Shown here one piece after another: positions 1 to 49,747 of a DNA stretch of 64,000 nt (positions within the stretch are counted from its first letter, which is position 1; every line of letters starts with the position of its first letter). The position numbers and the translations under genes were made by a program. Source of the stretch: Petrosia ficiformis (Eukaryota > Porifera > Demospongiae > Haplosclerida > Petrosiidae); contig OX345636.1 of the NCBI GenBank assembly GCA_947044365.1, forward strand, positions 1,445,501 through 1,509,500. Direction: 5' to 3'. Under the pieces are notes generated by a model. That model was not told where the DNA came from, did not search any database, and saw only the letters and a program-made list of their open reading frames with translations.

Positions 1-2382
1 CTAATTTTATATGCTGGTCATTCATCAGCACAGGTAATAAGAGTGATAAGCACTATGTATTTGTCAAAGTAACTTTGTGTAATTATATAAAATAGGTATA
101 TAGCAGACTGAATGCAATTGGTCTATCAATGTCTCATAAGTCAGTAATACGTCTGGTAACAGAGCTGGGAAGAAATCATGACAGGAAGGTGTTACAATGG
201 AAGGATCAACTTCAAGCATCTCTTCCAGATTGCAAGGCAAGACTACAATACATTTTTGTATACATACTATATCTTGACTATTATTGTTACAGGATGTAAC
301 CAGTGATCTACAAGTACAACAGGTTAACTCACTGTTATCGTTCTCTGATGAAGAGGGTGATGATATTAGCCAGTCAGAATCAGATCAATCAGAAATTACT
401 GAAATTGATGATGTTAGTGAAAATGAGATCCTGGAAGATCTATCCTCTGATTCAGAAAGCGAATGCAACAGTACAGAAGGTGAATATATGGATATTGATG
501 ATCAATCGCAACATCGAATTTTGCCAGATATTCCAACAGCAGTTGATGAAATATCTGACAAAACTACAAAGTTCACTGGATCAGATCCTCCATGTCAGTC
601 GTATCATAGCTACAAGTTGGTAGGTGATAATATTGATTTGAGTATTAAGCCTAGATACATGAGATATGACCGATTCAAGCATCAGTCACTTCACTATTTT
701 CACATGTATGCAGTCCAGAACAGAATCAATGTTAGTGACCTATGTAGACAGAGAAAGGGAACACTACCAGTTCCAATAAGTGAAATTGCCAGTTCCCTTC
801 TTCCATCAAAAGCTGATGATGATGTACTTCATGAAAACATTGCAATATTCATTGCCTGTACGCTTGTGGATCACCTAAGTTTCTTCTCTGTAACCTTTAG
901 TGGTATTTCAATACATCACACTCCCCATAAATATCCTAAGGAAATGTTGCATAAATCTATTGTGGTTACTAATATAATTATCACATGCATATACATGTTT
1001 AATTCTTATTTTATATAATAGGTTCCTTTAGGTATCTTGACAAAGAATGAGAATAAATCCAGTGAAATGGTTGATATTATGCACCACATTCACAAATATG
1101 TTCCTCTTTGTTCGTATTCTGAAAAAGAAGATGTAATAGATTTAGATGAAGCTGTTGATGTCCCCAAAGCAAATATTCATACAATTCAATTTGGTGGTGA
1201 TCATTTGACTGCTTGTAGAGCACGATGGTAATGGCCAATGGCAATGATCCAATACAGAGGTTAGAAGGACTCATGCCAACAGTGGAAGACTGGCATACCA
1301 AAGTTGTATTACTTGAGGTAAATACAATTTTATATATTATAATTATATAATATGCATGGATACAAGATCTATTATTATGTTAATTTATTTTTCATGCTTA
1401 ATAGATAATTTGGAAATATTTTTACTCAGTAAAGTCATCAACTGAGCATGGTACGTTGTTTCAAATTCGAAATCTTCTCCACCGTTCTAACGTCAGAATG
1501 CATCCGGGAAAGGACTTCAATGCTAGTGAAGATTTTTTAACTGTAGTTGTGAAGTCCATGATCATTACTGCAGCTTGTAAAGTTCTTGGAATGTCAAGTA
1601 CTTCTGATAATCCCCAAGAAAGCGTAGTTCCATACTCAACTTGGCTTGAAGCAACTGATGCTGAAAGGAAAGCATTACTGATTTCAGTGTCAAAAAAGAT
1701 AGTTAGCGATTCTGTATTTTTCTGTTTTACAACACCTTGTTTAAGATCTCAAGATAAAGTAATGGAATATTCAAAATTCTTATTGGGATTAGGATGTTTC
1801 TACATGGAATTTAGTGATGGCATACGACAAGGTGATGGCACACGTGTGTTAAGATGTTGGCGATGTATGCTTCCAATATTTCATAGCTCCCGACGTACTA
1901 ATTATCGAAATGAGGCCATCCTGCTGCTCTATCAGCATGACTTCTTGCTTTCTCCAGCAGATGCAGAAACATTGATATGGAATAAATTTATTAATGTGCA
2001 TGGGAAACCTGGGTGCAACATCCCACAAGATTTGCATATGGAGCATTTAAATATGATTGTTAAAGAAGCAGTGAAGGGATTAGGTTCTAACAAGACAGCT
2101 GAGGCCATATGCAGAGTTGCTAGAGCACTAGGAACAATTGCTCCAGTGTTAGACAATTTTGATACAGTTAACAATACAGCTCATCAACATAGTAGTCATT
2201 CTGTTGTATCAGCAGATAGAGATATACAAGTTGTAGTGAAAGATCTTTTAAAGTACAATATCTTTGAGTGTGTTGAACCTCGATCACATACCACATACTC
2301 AAACCCTAAAGATGTTCTTAGCTGCATGAATCTTCATGATTGGATCAAATCAAAAATACCCAAACTTCATCATACACATTAA
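1..2382 (+). CDS. DUF6589 protein, putative transposase (5' partial)
   Basis: Multi-exon gene running in from the left edge. I place exons at 1-33, 96-236, 293-964, 1022-~1228, ~1232-1317 and 1405-2382 (stop TAA); all junctions I can check are phase 0. The intron at 237-292 starts with GC (AAG|GCAAG) instead of GT. The product has an acidic Ser/Asp/Glu-rich stretch (~residues 70-125) and then the conserved core of the DUF6589 family: FGGDHLTACRAR, EGLMPTVEDWHT, QGDGTRV, NVHGKPGCNIPQDLHMEHLN. The Asp of GGD, the Asp of SDG or GDG and the Glu of MEHLN are candidate DDE residues (inference). The frame shifts by one base near 1228, between TACRAR and the downstream EGLMP exon, so this copy is broken or carries a sequence error. 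The gene converges on the RecQ gene at 2459 and probably shares a transposon with it. Family call is strong; transposase role is inferred. Confidence 0.8.
237..292 (+). other. GC-AG intron
   Basis: The intron between exons 2 and 3 of the DUF6589 gene has donor AAG|GCAAG and acceptor TTACAG|GAT. Both exons join in phase 0 (Asp-Cys-Lys then Asp-Val-Thr). GC-AG is the usual minor donor variant of the major spliceosome, and the rest of the donor matches consensus. Confidence 0.65.
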
Positions 2383-2458
2383 AAATACTTTGTTATATAT
2401 TATGTTTAATGAAATGATTATCCTCAAACAATTATATATACTATTAATATAACAATAA

Positions 2459-4079
2459 TTAAACAAAAACAAACCTACTTTGATTAATGGAACATTTTTG
2501 ACATACACATCTACTCATACAAATGTCACAGCACAGGCACAATCTCTGTAGAATGATGTGTTCAAAACCAGCAAATCCTTCGAATAATACTTTACGACGA
2601 CATACACTTGTATTATCCATGTACTGCAGCATTGCATTATCTACATATCGTTTGCACCCTTTCGTTTTCAGTAAAACTGCACAAGTAGGTTGCTCATCCC
2701 TCCCTCCTCTCCCAGTTTCTTGTATGTATGATTCTGCATCATCAGAAGGTCCTACATGGATTATCTGCCGTACATCATCACAGTTTATCCCCATACCAAA
2801 TGCAATTGTTGCACATACAATACGAGAGGAGAGTTCTCAGTAAATGACTTAATAATCTGTTCTTTCACAGATTCATCAGTTGCACTGGTGAACATTTCCA
2901 CAAGTCTGAACTTTGACAAGTCTGGTGCACCTGGTGGTTCTGTGAATTCCTTTCCCATATGGCTTCTGAAATGCAGGTAAATATCAGCACATTCTTCATA
3001 CCGCCTACAGTATATAATTGTACGTGGGAAATTTACTCGGTTTCTCCAAAACAGGGGCAAAGGTTACATCAATAGATACAAAAGACGCCACGCATAACAT
3101 TAAATTCTGTTTACAGGGTGACAGAATTACTCTCACTGGATCTTTCATTGACAAAAGGCGTTCCACTGACATTCTCACATCACAACTGGCAGTTGCAGTT
3201 AAAGCCATTACTCTGACTCCTTCACGTAAAATACTACGAACCTCCCCGACACGTAACAAACTCTCTCGAAAGGTATCTCCCTTGTTAATATGAGAATATA
3301 ATTTAAAACAATTACTATATTACAACTGTTGTAACTATAATATACTGCATACCATTTTTTCACACAGTGAGCCTCATCGATAACAAATGCACATAGTCTC
3401 TTTTGGTATGCATCTCCACCAAGAAGATGCCGCCAATGTCTACTGAGTAGTAGTTCTGGTGTAAAATACACAAGCTGAAAATATCCTTCAGTGACTTTAG
3501 ATTTGATCTCTTTATCATCCATATCACCACATATGCATACACATCTTAAGCCTCTCAATCGCCATCCTTCAACCTGAAGATCATAAATATTTCTGATTAT
3601 GAAACTTTACTATAATTTATAATTATATAATAATTGTTTATAATATAATAATATATAATTATCATATATAATTATATCTAACTGTTATAATTATGTGATG
3701 AAAAGATACTTGTTTTACATTGTATCTTGTAGTAGTCTCATAGTGTTTTTGTATTATGTAACCTATTATTTAGTCTTGTCATTGTTCTGTAACAATATTA
3801 TCTATTATTATTATATCAGATCATTAATTAGCATACCTGATCTTTCATTATAGCTGTGAGAGGAGTGATCACAACAACAACAGAATCTTTCCTACCCAGC
3901 AAACTATCAAAGGCAAATGGCAAACAAGCGTAGCATAGTGATTTGCCAAATCCTGTAGGAAGGATTGCAAATACATCTCTTCCCTTCAAAAAACTCGTCA
4001 CTACTTCCAACTGTTTTGCTCTCAATTTCTTATATCCCAATCGTTCTACTGCTGTTCTCACTGCCAACTCGTACTCCAT
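2459..4079 (-). pseudogene. RecQ-family helicase of a transposon (broken copy)
   Basis: Read on the minus strand: exon 1 4079-3837, exon 2 3573-3353, exon 3 3280-2459 (stop TAA). Visible SF2/RecQ motifs in order: zero-motif region (LGYKKLRAKQLEVV), Walker A LPTGFGKS, Ia VITPLTAIMKDQ, Walker B DEAHCV, III ALTATAS, IV PRTIIYCR, V ATIAFGMGIN, VI YIQETGRGGRD, then a Cys-rich zinc-binding end (CLCCDICMSRC). Exon 1 to exon 2 splices cleanly (MKDQ|VEGW). The reading frame changes near 3040 (after FAPVLEK) and near 2805 (before the IVCATIAFGMG motif), and the exon 2-3 junction at the conserved DEAHCVKKW does not join in frame with canonical sites. It is therefore a decayed copy or has indel errors. 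No HRDC or long N-terminal region is present, so it is not a host BLM/WRN gene. Confidence 0.85.
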
Positions 4080-4228
4080 CTTTATTCCGCTATCTGTGAC
4101 GTTAAATACTTGTGGTTGAACAACTTAATCTGATTGGCCTGCAATATTTCTCCAGAGTCCACAACTAGTGAATATGCGTGTCCCCAGACCCTCCGCCTCT
4201 TACCGCGAGGGTCTGGCTTGTCAGACTA
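4080..4228 (-). promoter_or_regulatory. 5' region of the RecQ gene, including a transposon end
   Basis: 149 bp separate the helicase ATG from an end reading TAGTCTGACAAGCCAGACCC inward from 4228. A CCAAT-type motif (AATCTGATTGGCC, 4127-4139) lies 48 bp upstream of the ATG. The same motif lies 47 bp upstream of the ATG remnant in the copy at 16366 and 63 bp upstream of the ATG at 13130. The terminal part can fold on itself (CAGACCCTC...GAGGGTCTG, 4185-4215). Confidence 0.6.
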
Positions 4229-4239
4229 CCCTTTCCTTG

Positions 4240-4411: not shown

Positions 4412-4767
4412 TCAGAACCGTCCACAGGGAGCTGTTTTCCTGTGTGATGCACGTGAGAGGAATTGCGACTGAAATGAATTCCTCACACTGACATCGAAAT
4501 AACCTGGCTTGCCAAAACTGAAATCAGGATGAAACACATCGCTAGGACGATTATTGTTATTTGTACCACACTGTTGTTCCCTTAACGCACCTTTGTTGTC
4601 CATCAACAAAGTGTGCCAGACCACTTCACTCAGAGCATCGTGATGTTTGATTCTAAGTGGGCCGTATCCGAGGACATTGTCACCATAATTATCAATGGTC
4701 TGCCGACAAACACATCTAACTGGGTGAGGAAAATGTGACACCCAAGCCACACTGACACATTCATATT
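4412..4767 (-). pseudogene. Retroelement endonuclease C-terminal fragment
   Basis: The C-terminal half of an open frame ending at 4412 contains VRCVCRQTIDNYGDN, RIKHHDAL and a RPSDVFHPDF...GKPGYFDVSVRN block. This resembles the Cys/His-plus-nuclease tail (RPgDv-PDf-G-p-FDvtvrN, PD-(D/E)XK-like) found at the end of some reverse-transcriptase proteins and related uncharacterised invertebrate proteins. No RT domain precedes it. Instead it is joined without a stop to the C2H2 transposase remnant at ~4768. It could be a 5'-truncated retroelement insertion or a captured domain. Family assignment is from motif memory. Confidence 0.45.
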
Positions 4768-6525
4768 GAAGAGCTCCCTCTAAGATGTCATGTATAACAT
4801 CTGGAACTAGGCATTGACAAACATGAAAGTACTGCAAATCCATCAGAATACTTCGACCATTGACACCATACTCTGTTGACTTGGAGCCATCATTATGTAG
4901 CCCCTCTACATGAGTTAGGTGACTTTCAAGAGTGCGTAAGTGAAGATTTTCTTCAATAAACTGGAGCAACAGTCAAAAATAATAGTTCAGCAAGAAATAC
5001 AAATGTTTAACTCACAATACTCTTAGTTTCATAAACAGTAGCGAAACACTGCTGACAGTACCGATATGCAGTACTGCCTTTTTTTGAAACCACTGCAGGC
5101 ACTACTAGCAGGATTACCTGCCGATATGTGCAATGGTTCCAAAAATCATTGATTCGACACCTTGTATATTCATCATAATACCAGACTCCTATTATAAATA
5201 TAAACGGTTACACCAGCACAAATCATCACAATAATAAACAAGTGTACATGTACCTACCAATTTCTTAACATCCTTGATGAATGATTCCAGCACCTTACTA
5301 ATTGAATACTTCTTAATTAATTTATGCCGACATATTGCCACTAAATAATATTCCTTAGTTTTGATTGGTACTTAGGGTGAAGATTTCCAAGAGTGAAATA
5401 AAACAGTCCTACAGGTATGTATGTACATTGTACAGTAATTACAAATAGTATAATTACTACCTCAAAAATGTACACTACCTTGCTTATGTTTTGTTCTACT
5501 AGAACCCAGTAGGCTGCACATCTCAACATCGTCATAGTAGAAAAGAAGTTGGAGTGCTTTGTGGTTAACAGAAAAAATTTCATGACTTATATAATAGTCG
5601 CCATCACAAAAATCACTCAAAATTCCAAGATGGCGTTTTTTATGGCCCCTTTCAATCTCAATTACATTTGCAATAGCACATAAAATTAATTTTGTAATGA
5701 CTTACTGTACCTCAGTGATAACTGTATCATTATTAAGCAGAACTTCCAATGTTTGAAGAAGTGGAATATAAACCATGGTTTTGTTCTTTTCTATTATTCG
5801 TCTCTTTGATCCATAGCATCAAGGAGTCACCTTTGTATCCAAAACAACTTAAATAGGTTCCTGGGAGTGTTAGAATTACATATCATAGTACAAATGAAAT
5901 TTATAGAACAAGTGAATTACCACGAGTCCAAAATTTGAACGAAAATACTGCATTTGCTCTGCTTGTGAGGATAGACTCTTGAAAATATTACTACATGGAC
6001 TAGAATCACTAAATGCTGACAAAACTGCTTCAGTTGTGGAATCGTCAATTCCAGCCTGTTGCAGATGGAACTTACACGATTACCAACATGTAACAGAGAA
6101 ACATTAAAGAGGGACTGAATATCTGTGATAAGACTATCCATGACAGCTAAAGGAAGGTGGTGATGTTCTCTGTTTTTAAAAATCCAAATAGCAGCTGCTA
6201 TTTGAAGATCATCCAAACTTAATAGTGGATATAAACAATCTTCGTTATCATTCAAGACACTGCTAATGTCATTTTCTCCCAAATCATAGGTAAAGTTTGT
6301 TGTTGTTGATACTGCACTTTCACCGCTTTCTTCCAGTTTACCAATATCATGGAAATTATAAATATAATTTCGATAAGTTGAAAACTTTTTAAAAGTTCAT
6401 TTACATTTCTGTAGGGAACACTGTATCTGAATGTTTTCAGCATCAGCATGGGCAATTCTAATATGACTTAACAACTTTGATACTGTCTTGAATTGGCTGG
6501 AAGAACAAAGAGGACAATTCACCAT
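4768..6525 (-). pseudogene. C2H2-type transposase gene, decayed
   Basis: Minus-strand remnants of one protein in order: start ATG at 6525, N-terminal C2H2 finger (NCPLCSSSQFKTVSKLLSHIRIAH), linker with acidic region, IAAAIWIFKNREHHHLPLAVM (~6170), IIEKNKTMVYIPLLQTLEVLL (~5760), DFCDGDYY...HKALQLLFYYDDVEMCSLLGS (~5580-5490), VGLFYFTLGNLHPKY (~5400), Cys pairs RYCQQCFATVYE (~5060), EYGVNGRSILMDLQYFHVC..LVPDVIHDILEGALQYE (~4880-4770). I recognise this order from widespread uncharacterised metazoan proteins linked to cut-and-paste elements, tentatively CACTA/Plavaka-like. An in-frame TGA at 6399-6397 in the finger linker (a CGA>TGA type change) and frame changes near 6005 show decay. A CACTA pentamer begins at 6569 (-), 44 bp before the ATG. 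Confidence 0.6.
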
Positions 6526-12965: not shown

Positions 12966-13530
12966 TAGTCTCGCGGGCCACGACCTAATCCGAACGAGGA
13001 AACGGTCTGGTGACTCTCGTTGAAAGGTCGTTGGCTACAACCGATTTTGGTTGTGACCAATCAGATTTAGTGATTGCTATTTACCGCATTTCACGCTTCG
13101 GTGTCAGTTTTCACACTTCTGTATGGAAAATGTCGTCAAAGAAGTTTGGTATAAAGAAATCTATTGAAATAGCAGTAAGGAAGCTAGGTTATAGTGAAGT
13201 TCGCCCTATCCAGGTGACCGTGATACAGAGGTTCATGGAAGGCCATGATATTTTTGTAAGTCTGCCGACAGGGAGTGGAAAGTCTCTTTGTTACTGGTCT
13301 CTGCCAGGAGCCTTTGATTATATCGCTCGCTTCTCCACACTCACTGAGCAACACAAACAAATATCTCCATCCATATTTTCACAGCTATACAATAATAATT
13401 ATTAACCACTAATAATTGAAAGTGTTAAACTAACTGGCGGATGTAATTATCATTCCATTGTGTAACGACCTTTCAACGAGAGTCACCAGACCGTTTCCTT
13501 TTTCGGATTAGGTCGTGGCCCGCGAGACTA
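12966..13530 (+). mobile_element. 565-bp RecQ-exon TIR element with 9-bp target duplication
   Basis: Ends read TAGTCTCGCGGGCCACGACC; the TIRs are about 67 bp (12966-13032 and 13464-13530) with about three mismatches, all around one CGAACG/CGAAAA site. It is flanked by perfect 9-bp repeats GGCTGGATG at 12957-12965 and 13531-13539. The interior is the first exon of a RecQ-like helicase (ATG 13130) and little else, so it is a nonautonomous derivative of the DUF6589/RecQ transposon. It lies inside the TTAA element. Confidence 0.9.
13130..13405 (+). pseudogene. RecQ helicase first exon, captured fragment
   Basis: ATG at 13130, 164 bp from the left TIR end. The peptide has KLGYSEVRPIQVTVIQRF (RecQ zero motif) and an intact Walker A, SLPTGSGKSLCYW, then diverges after GAFDYIA and stops at 13405. 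No motif II-VI follows, so no helicase activity is possible. The exon and its upstream CCAAT motif (GACCAATCAGATT, 13055-13067) are arranged as in the longer copy at 4079-4228. Confidence 0.85.
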
Positions 13531-16140: not shown

Positions 16141-16513
16141 AGATTCATTTTGGCAGTCAGAGGAATGATCACAACAACAATCTTTCCTAACTAGGTAATT
16201 GTCAAAGGCACATACCACATTGATTTGCCAAATCCAGTGGAAAGGATGGAAAATACATCTCTTCCCTTCAAAATGATTGTCACTACTTTAAGCATTTGCA
16301 CCTTCAATTTCTTGTATCCCAATCATTCTGCTGTTCTCACAGTGCTCACAGGTAGTTGTGCTTCATCTTTATTACACAATTGGTCATTGAAACTCTTGTG
16401 GCTAAACAACTTAATCTGATTGGTCTGCAATATTTCTGCAGATTCCACAACTAGTGAATGTGTGTGCCCAGACCCTCCCGGAGGGCCTATTACTGCGAGG
16501 GTCTGTCAGACTA
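16141..16513 (-). pseudogene. Decayed RecQ first exon with transposon end
   Basis: Aligns by eye over its whole length with 3850-4228: same minus-strand exon-1 sequence (GATTTGCCAAATCC on the plus strand marks the Walker A region), same upstream AATCTGATTGG box (16413-16425) and same terminal GAGGGTCTG..CAGACTA ending at 16513. ATG remnant at 16366, 147 bp from the end. Many small indels, so it is dead. The other end of this copy is not found; it appears truncated near 16141. Confidence 0.75.
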
Positions 16514-19285: not shown

Positions 19286-19999
19286 ACTAGTCTTGTTCCT
19301 GTAACCGTTTCTACTTGGATTTAGCATCGCTTGAATGAAAATTTAGGCAGAAACAGCCAACAACTCAGCCACAACTTTTCTTGGACACACCCACAATTTT
19401 AATAACACGTTTAGATTGCAAAAGTGCACATGTGCAAACATTGAAGTGGGCGTGGCAGCGAAGCTTCGAATGTGCAGTAAACGAACGAAGGTTCGAATAT
19501 TTCAACCTTTTTCCCAGCCTTAATATGTACACACATACATACATACTTAAATACATAATTTGGTTTGATTTGCCAATTGGCTGCGTAATAGGATCCTCAT
19601 GTTGGGTTCTATGAGGTATGCCATTTCTGAACCTTATCTATTTGCAGACGTTTTCAAATTCAAAAGTATAATTGGCTTGACAGATTTATGCTCAATTTAT
19701 ATTAAAGGTTTGCTACTATGCCCTAAACTTTGTAATCATGCTTGGTATAATTCATCAGACATTCCATAAATTACGTAACTAACATTCAGAATGAAATTTC
19801 ACATTATTATTACAAGTGTTTACATATAATAGTCACAGTGTTTGATACAGTGACTTCATGTTTGTTCACTATAGATGTTTCTCATTTCTATGACTCTAGT
19901 GTTCAAGACTATTTATGGCTATTACTTAAAAATAATGTCATATTTAGTACTTTTGTATATGAAGTACAATGTACATGATAGATAGGCATTGATAGGGTT

Positions 20000-49163: not shown

Positions 49164-49747
49164 TAGTCTCGCAAGCCACACCCAACCCTGAAGTGGGGAA
49201 GGGACTGATCATAGTCTTAACATAACCTTGTAATACAGGAATGCAATTACCGTGATTATTAAAATGTGTTAGCTCCACCTAATAATGGTGAGAATTACAT
49301 TAGCAAACAAACCCAACATCCAACACTAAAATTCCAGCTTCCAATCTTTTACTCTTAAAACTCTCCACTTGACCTTTCACAAGCGCGTTCAAGGGTGACA
49401 CAACTAAGACTAAACTCCCAATATTGCCTCTTAACAGATCAAATATCAATGGTATAGTTGCATAGTAAACATGTTTAACATAACAAGCTAAGAGTAAAAT
49501 AAAAACATCTTTCCTACTAACAAATTCTATTGTGGCTTCCTTCTGCTTTGTCTCAAATCCCAAACATCTCTCTGCTACTTCTATCATCAACACCTCCATG
49601 TTAATGTTGCTGTGCTTCTGTTCTGATGTTTCATAACGTTCTGTTATTTGGTCAGAGAGCAACATACAGAGTGTCATGAACAAGCTGATGTAAAGGCCGT
49701 GTCCAGACCCTTTCCCACTTTAGAGTTGGGTCTGGCTTGCGAGATGA
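49164..49747 (-). mobile_element. 584-bp RecQ-exon TIR element with 9-bp target duplication
   Basis: Ends: TAGTCTCGCAAGCCACACCC (49164) and, inverted from 49747, TCATCTCGCAAGCCAGACCC. TIRs of about 45 bp with several mismatches. Flanks TAATTACTG (49155-49163) and TAATTAATG (49748-49756) differ by one base. Same size and layout as 12966-13530 but opposite orientation and more diverged. Confidence 0.85.
49300..49599 (-). pseudogene. RecQ helicase first exon, degenerate
   Basis: ATG at 49599, 148 bp inside the TIR end. VAERCLGFETKQKEATIEFV corresponds to the zero motif with the conserved Gln shifted. DVFILLLACYVKHVYY replaces the Walker A LPTGxGKSLCYA, so the ATP-binding lysine context is lost. 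LVLVVSPLNALVKGQVESFK matches motif Ia. Stop near 49300. Confidence 0.75.

Follow-up and report, generated by a model that had tools for sequence, protein, structure and literature searches.

The window analysed here is a stretch of 64,000 nucleotides from the sponge Petrosia ficiformis (contig OX345636.1; G000:C1:1445501-1509500), and it opens inside a DNA transposon that carries two convergent genes, one for a DUF6589 protein and one for a RecQ-family helicase. We consider it highly probable that this element represents the AcademH type of cut-and-paste transposon, in which the DUF6589 protein would act as a DDE transposase. The genome searched was the 191-Mb assembly of 29 contigs from which the window is taken. 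The element, its terminal inverted repeats (TIRs) and its target-site duplication (TSD) are placed as follows (window coordinates unless a locus is named):

G000:C1:1444462-1449728, the whole transposon, 5,267 bp, with 1..4228 inside the window and a further 1,039 bp to its left
4158..4228, minus strand, right TIR, 71 bp, same as the left copy at L009:7463-7533, with an inner inverted repeat CCAGACCCTC/GAGGGTCTGG
4229..4237, TSD CCCTTTCCT, with its left copy at L009:7454-7462

A preliminary description, made from the window alone, had drawn the element from 1 to 4228 and predicted a left TIR and a duplication further upstream. Both are present and exact. A search left of the window found the left end at L009:7463 (TAGTCTGACAAGCCAGA..., an exact match to the right-end sequence), with CCCTTTCCT just before it. 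The TIRs are perfect over 71 bp and both outer flanks read CCCTTTCCT, indicating that position 4228 is a genuine end of the element, whereas the left limit at position 1 was the mere edge of the window. Moreover, when the genome was queried with the joined flanks, the same surroundings were found without the insertion at several places. In an alignment of three such loci (L032-L034), CCCTTTCCT is present as a single exact copy in both L034 copies and as one altered copy in L032 and in L033.

The two genes and the helicase motifs lie at:

1..2382, plus strand, putative DUF6589 transposase gene, 3' part, with window exons to ~34, 96-236, 293-964, 1022-1317 and 1405-2382, splice sites placed by eye
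2459..4124, minus strand, RecQ-family helicase gene, with open frames 3828-4124, 3208-3606, 2785-3063 and 2459-2836
3939..3962, minus strand, Walker A motif, LPTGFGKS
3367..3378, minus strand, DEAH box
2696..2713, minus strand, GRGGRD, which we take to be the helicase motif VI region

The genes are convergent, as first described, although the gap between their stop codons is 76 bp and not 77 bp. Pfam PF20231 (DUF6589) was matched at 1408-2379 on the plus strand (E 1e-28), with more exons upstream; exon 1 and the greater part of exon 2 fall outside the window, on its left side. For the helicase, the Pfam cut-offs were passed by Helicase_C at E 7.3e-7 and by one DEAD piece at E 4.5e-9; another DEAD piece (E 1.9e-5), like RecQ_Zn_bind (E 0.001), stayed below. 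The helicase frame of a related element, L016, gave its best matches to human RECQ4 (4.3e-23), bacterial RecQ (1.4e-22) and BLM (6.5e-21).

The window copy is dead, because both genes contain frame breaks. Those of the DUF6589 gene are in exons 1 and 5: relative to its siblings, exon 1 has one inserted and one missing stretch, plus a stop common to L023, and exon 5 has a 10-base gap common to L023 and L030. The helicase gene has a frame shift between frames 2785-3063 and 2459-2836, where the sibling copies are open. Overall, the window copy is 98.7-99.3% identical to its three siblings.

The partnership of DUF6589 and RecQ is long-lasting. At least 105 DUF6589 matches in the genome merged into 73 loci, and 138 matches of the L016 helicase frame merged into 96 loci. 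A downstream RecQ locus was found at 50 of the 73 DUF6589 loci, all 50 convergent, and 23 loci were without one; random placement, counting one side and disregarding strand, would give 0.16 such adjacencies. Among the 20 best-scoring other DUF6589 loci, examined as 10-kb stretches, 19 have a convergent helicase (L026 is without), and at L015 one helicase piece is inverted. Moreover, the DUF6589 and helicase distance matrices of 17 paired loci, in which the window family was counted once, are correlated (r 0.80; 0 of 5000 permutations reach this value, the best being ≤0.54), with identity between paired loci going down to ~32% in both genes. The two gene trees agree on the groups L013-L028-L015, L011-L021, L019-L022, L014-L020-L027 and L016-L025, and they disagree in their deeper branches and in the placement of L012, L017, L018 and L024.

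The preliminary description had raised the question of whether such pairs elsewhere lie inside common TIRs. In a search seeded with 9 exact bases and allowing no more than one mismatch in a duplication of 8-10 bp, we found TAGTCT...AGACTA ends enclosing both genes at 9 of the 20 other DUF6589 loci, with lengths of 5,053-5,336 bp. The duplication is an exact 9-bp one in eight of these nine full-length elements, while L028 has one of 8 bp with a mismatch; L023 and L030 have the window's site. End pairs not starting with TAGTCT (L015, L018-L021, L024-L026) were dropped, as they lie within simple or other repeats, even the well-scoring ones of L020 and L021.

Five exact end pairs ~5.2 kb apart were found in the genome, and four of them, the window's among them, have the window's left flank. 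CCCTTTCCT is common to the window copy, L023 and L030, whose flanking sequences agree at 97-99% over the length compared. Because the insertion site and flanks are common, L023 and L030 are not independent of the window copy, and CCCTTTCCT was rejected as a preferred target: the three copies represent one insertion duplicated with its surroundings, and independent sites have other 9-mers. The element is nested in a larger repeated unit (L009:5083-7462 and from window position 4229 onward, ~2.6 kb) that is 97-99% identical in L023 and L030; the insertion was therefore copied together with its surroundings.

Shrunken derivatives of the family were also found in the window:

12966..13530, plus strand, non-autonomous element with helicase exon 1, 565 bp, exact 9-bp TSD GGCTGGATG
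16144..16513, minus strand, right-end relic retaining helicase exon 1, with 75% identity to the big element's family
49164..49747, no strand assigned, non-autonomous element with helicase exon 1, 584 bp, TSD TAATTACTG / TAATTAATG, 8 of 9 bases equal

Both short elements named in the preliminary description do exist, carrying a helicase exon between 9-bp duplications, of which one is exact and the other has one mismatch; their TIRs, said to match the end at 4228, are similar to it but not identical (TAGTCTCGC... versus TAGTCTGAC...). A left end for the relic at 16144-16513 was searched for and not found. The TAGTCT/AGACTA pairs at 19288, 38279, 20889, 28207 and 53557 were dropped, as they had no convincing TIR or TSD. 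Across the genome, six end pairs lie ~0.5 kb apart; each joins left-end sequence, taken from roughly the first 130 bp, to the final 325-396 bp, and all six retain helicase exon 1. A 9-bp duplication with at most one mismatch flanks four of these six derivatives, and in L041 and L044 it was sought and not found; exact 9-bp duplications are present at L043 and L045. Even smaller are L037-L040, near-pure palindromes of 51-72 bp from the outermost ends. Exact 9-bp duplications flank L039 and L040, and none was found when sought in L037 and L038.

These derivatives bear on whether the helicase is a captured passenger without a role in transposition, since they moved although none encodes an intact helicase itself. 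They moved likewise without a transposase, however, and the pairing of DUF6589 and RecQ persists across families at 32-97% helicase identity, with matching distances and with the helicase motifs kept. We therefore regard a mere passenger as unlikely.

The DUF6589 protein is the candidate for the transposase. For the AlphaFold model of P0001, an AcademH-type DUF6589 protein, 23 of the 24 best structural matches were Hermes, RAG1 or RAG-like proteins, or HzTransib, the remaining one being Spt6; for the model of L031, from a second DUF6589 lineage, the seven best were Hermes (six) and ISCth4. Both models gave core-wide matches to Hermes, and one of them also to RAG1 and Transib, with modest Z scores. 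Foldseek with the L031 model gave, among the matches listed, low-probability unrelated ones alone, which does not exclude transposase families missing there. Likewise, the P0001 model had no match at E≤0.001 in a viral structure library, which does not exclude families missing from that library. Taken as predictions, the two diverged models support, at modest scores, a fold resembling that of RNase H-like DDE transposases, in line with what the preliminary description had proposed for DUF6589.

The motifs considered for the active site are:

623..637, plus strand, GDNID, proposed as the first catalytic Asp, not covered by the Pfam DUF6589 match
1193..1210, plus strand, GGDHLT, proposed second catalytic Asp
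1288..1296, plus strand, DWH, conserved in both DUF6589 lineages
2038..2052, plus strand, MEHLN, proposed catalytic Glu

The catalytic triad is likely to consist of two Asp residues, in GDNID and GGD, and the Glu of MEHLN, as judged from conservation in two alignments. The first (A2) combines P0001-P0008 (eight of the nine found, P0009 being omitted) with 51 exon pieces out of 52, trimmed to their longest stop-free part where needed; among rows with a residue, D401 is present in 22/22, D398 in 21/22 (one E), D566 in 16/18 (two E) and E818 in 19/19. In the second (A3), made of L031 and P0010-P0054 with P0055 and P0056 left out, the corresponding counts are 37/37 for D23, 35/37 for D20, 46/46 for D267 and 45/45 for E520. 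In P0001, as in the window, GDNID lies ahead of the Pfam match. The apparent agreement of the motif acids with the active-site places of Hermes and RAG1 comes solely from residue counts made inward along certain aligned ranges, not from coordinates. The triad originally suggested was GGD, SDG/GDG and MEH; GGD and MEH were kept, and the Asp of SDG/GDG was set aside as the middle catalytic residue. It is present in 22/22 AcademH-type rows, but of the 46 second-lineage rows only 21 have D at the aligned position and 20 have N, which makes a catalytic role less likely, and GDNID is the better candidate.

As a separate observation on the DUF6589 proteins, exon 1 of the L016, L022 and L013 elements opens with CxxC ... 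CxxC, which by eye appears zinc-binding-like and is perhaps DNA-binding.

According to the excerpts of PMC10045372, AcademH elements have TSDs of 9 or 10 bp and AcademX elements TSDs of 3 or 4 bp, a difference tied to the presence of a helicase versus a nuclease. Excerpts of PMC10799480 state that AcademH, found in fungi, is a source of helicases, citing Kojima 2020 (Mob DNA 11:15), with KolobokH beside it as a helicase carrier, and in an excerpt of PMC10294476 Academ is one of 17 DDE/D superfamilies. The element, with its putative transposase and RecQ-family helicase, its perfect 71-bp TIRs and its 9-bp TSDs, is very probably a new member of AcademH, a kind already described; in the features compared, nothing sets it apart from that kind. 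This assignment, which had been anticipated from the window, follows from the helicase and the length of the duplications. The literature searched, which did not include the original AcademH description, contained no link between DUF6589 and the Academ transposase; within that literature, the assignment of DUF6589 as the transposase is new here. As for KolobokH, it is also a DNA transposon with a helicase; Kolobok targets TTAA, whereas the TSDs found here are varied 9-mers.

An alternative reading is a TIR transposon with a hAT- or RAG-like transposase outside Academ, which acquired a RecQ helicase independently. That the structural matches are Hermes, RAG1, Transib and ISCth4, in a comparison without any Academ reference, speaks for this alternative. 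However, hAT elements make 8-bp TSDs, whereas the window element and eight of nine other elements have 9 bp, L028 alone having 8 bp, with a mismatch. Moreover, a helicase together with 9-bp duplications is reported for AcademH (excerpts of PMC10045372), and the second DUF6589 lineage in the same genome is AcademX-like by eye in having a long single frame, a likeness that searches did not confirm. On balance, we consider an origin outside Academ quite unlikely. Identity is 7-12% to Hermes and likewise to RAG1 and Transib; the TSD of the latter two is 5 bp, in contrast to the 9 bp of the window element.

This second lineage is represented by L031:790-6186 (plus strand) and L036, with single-frame proteins of 1,799 and 1,830 amino acids. 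L031 belongs to the same DUF6589 family by Pfam, and a profile comparison gave a probability of 92.9 over 407 columns at 14% identity. The C-terminal part of both proteins is FEN/XPG-like by eye, with a CXC-like end (for L031, TCR at E 0.012, below the cut-off). No XPG match was found for L031 or A3 in Pfam (E≤10) or in PDB, by sequence and by profile, and element ends were sought for L031 and L036 and not found. They differ from the window element by their single long frame and by having no adjoining helicase locus. On these by-eye motifs, L031 and L036 are candidates, and likely ones, for AcademX; they were not used as proof.

Finally, although the named protein relatives, from the sponges Amphimedon queenslandica and Ephydatia muelleri, are called uncharacterised, hypothetical or DUF6589 proteins, the TIRs with their target duplications, the empty sites, the shrunken derivatives and the dispersal of dozens of copies, many of them interrupted, leave almost no room for host genes, or a domesticated pair, flanked by repeats by chance, a reading that is refuted at the window locus because of the empty sites and TSDs.

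In the AcademH-type mechanism that we propose, the DUF6589 protein would bind the TIRs, and its RNase H-like core, into which a mostly helical segment is inserted much as in the hAT, RAG1 and Transib transposases, would cut and join DNA through the DDE triad given above, joining to target strands 9 bp apart. Less surely, the RecQ helicase may unwind DNA at the ends, or aid gap repair or copying.

An inner inverted repeat able to form a stem-loop was found in all eight terminal repeats that were folded, namely those of six full-length families, of the 12966 element and of the 16513 relic (the 49164 element was left out). The longest perfect stems are 6-10 bp, and the stem sequence differs between families. 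When compared with 200 mononucleotide shuffles, the stem is equalled by none in four of the eight repeats and by 2, 5, 8 and 27 of 200 in the other four. This is suggestive of a stem-loop that may be functional, and its description in these terminal repeats is possibly new here. Only tentatively do we suggest that the helicase acts on the transposon's own ends, opening TIR hairpins or cruciforms so that DUF6589 can act or the gap be copied correctly; on this view the 51-72 bp palindromes would have arisen when copying doubled back within the loop. We consider this reading rather doubtful.

Some further observations concern the surroundings. The flank that adjoins the insertion recurs close to either end of the 63-Mb contig C1 (0.67, 1.2, 1.44, 1.57, 62.85 and 62.97 Mb). 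An open frame at window 4412-4972 on the minus strand weakly resembles, below the cut-off, transposases of the Plavaka family (E 0.13) and is perhaps the host unit's own gene. The sequence TAGTCTCACAAGCCAGACCC, which differs from the TIR start by one base, occurs eight times within 0.9 Mb at G000:C3:6196686-7064638, always on the plus strand and with no inverted partner among those listed.

The transposon type itself has already been described, whereas Pfam lists DUF6589 without a known function. If DUF6589 is an Academ-type DDE transposase, DUF6589 annotations would become those of transposons or their remnants, and the Academ superfamily would be placed structurally near hAT, RAG1 and Transib, with a triad to test. 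Moreover, the conserved helicase partner, together with the stem-loop ends, makes the question of why some transposons carry helicases a testable one.
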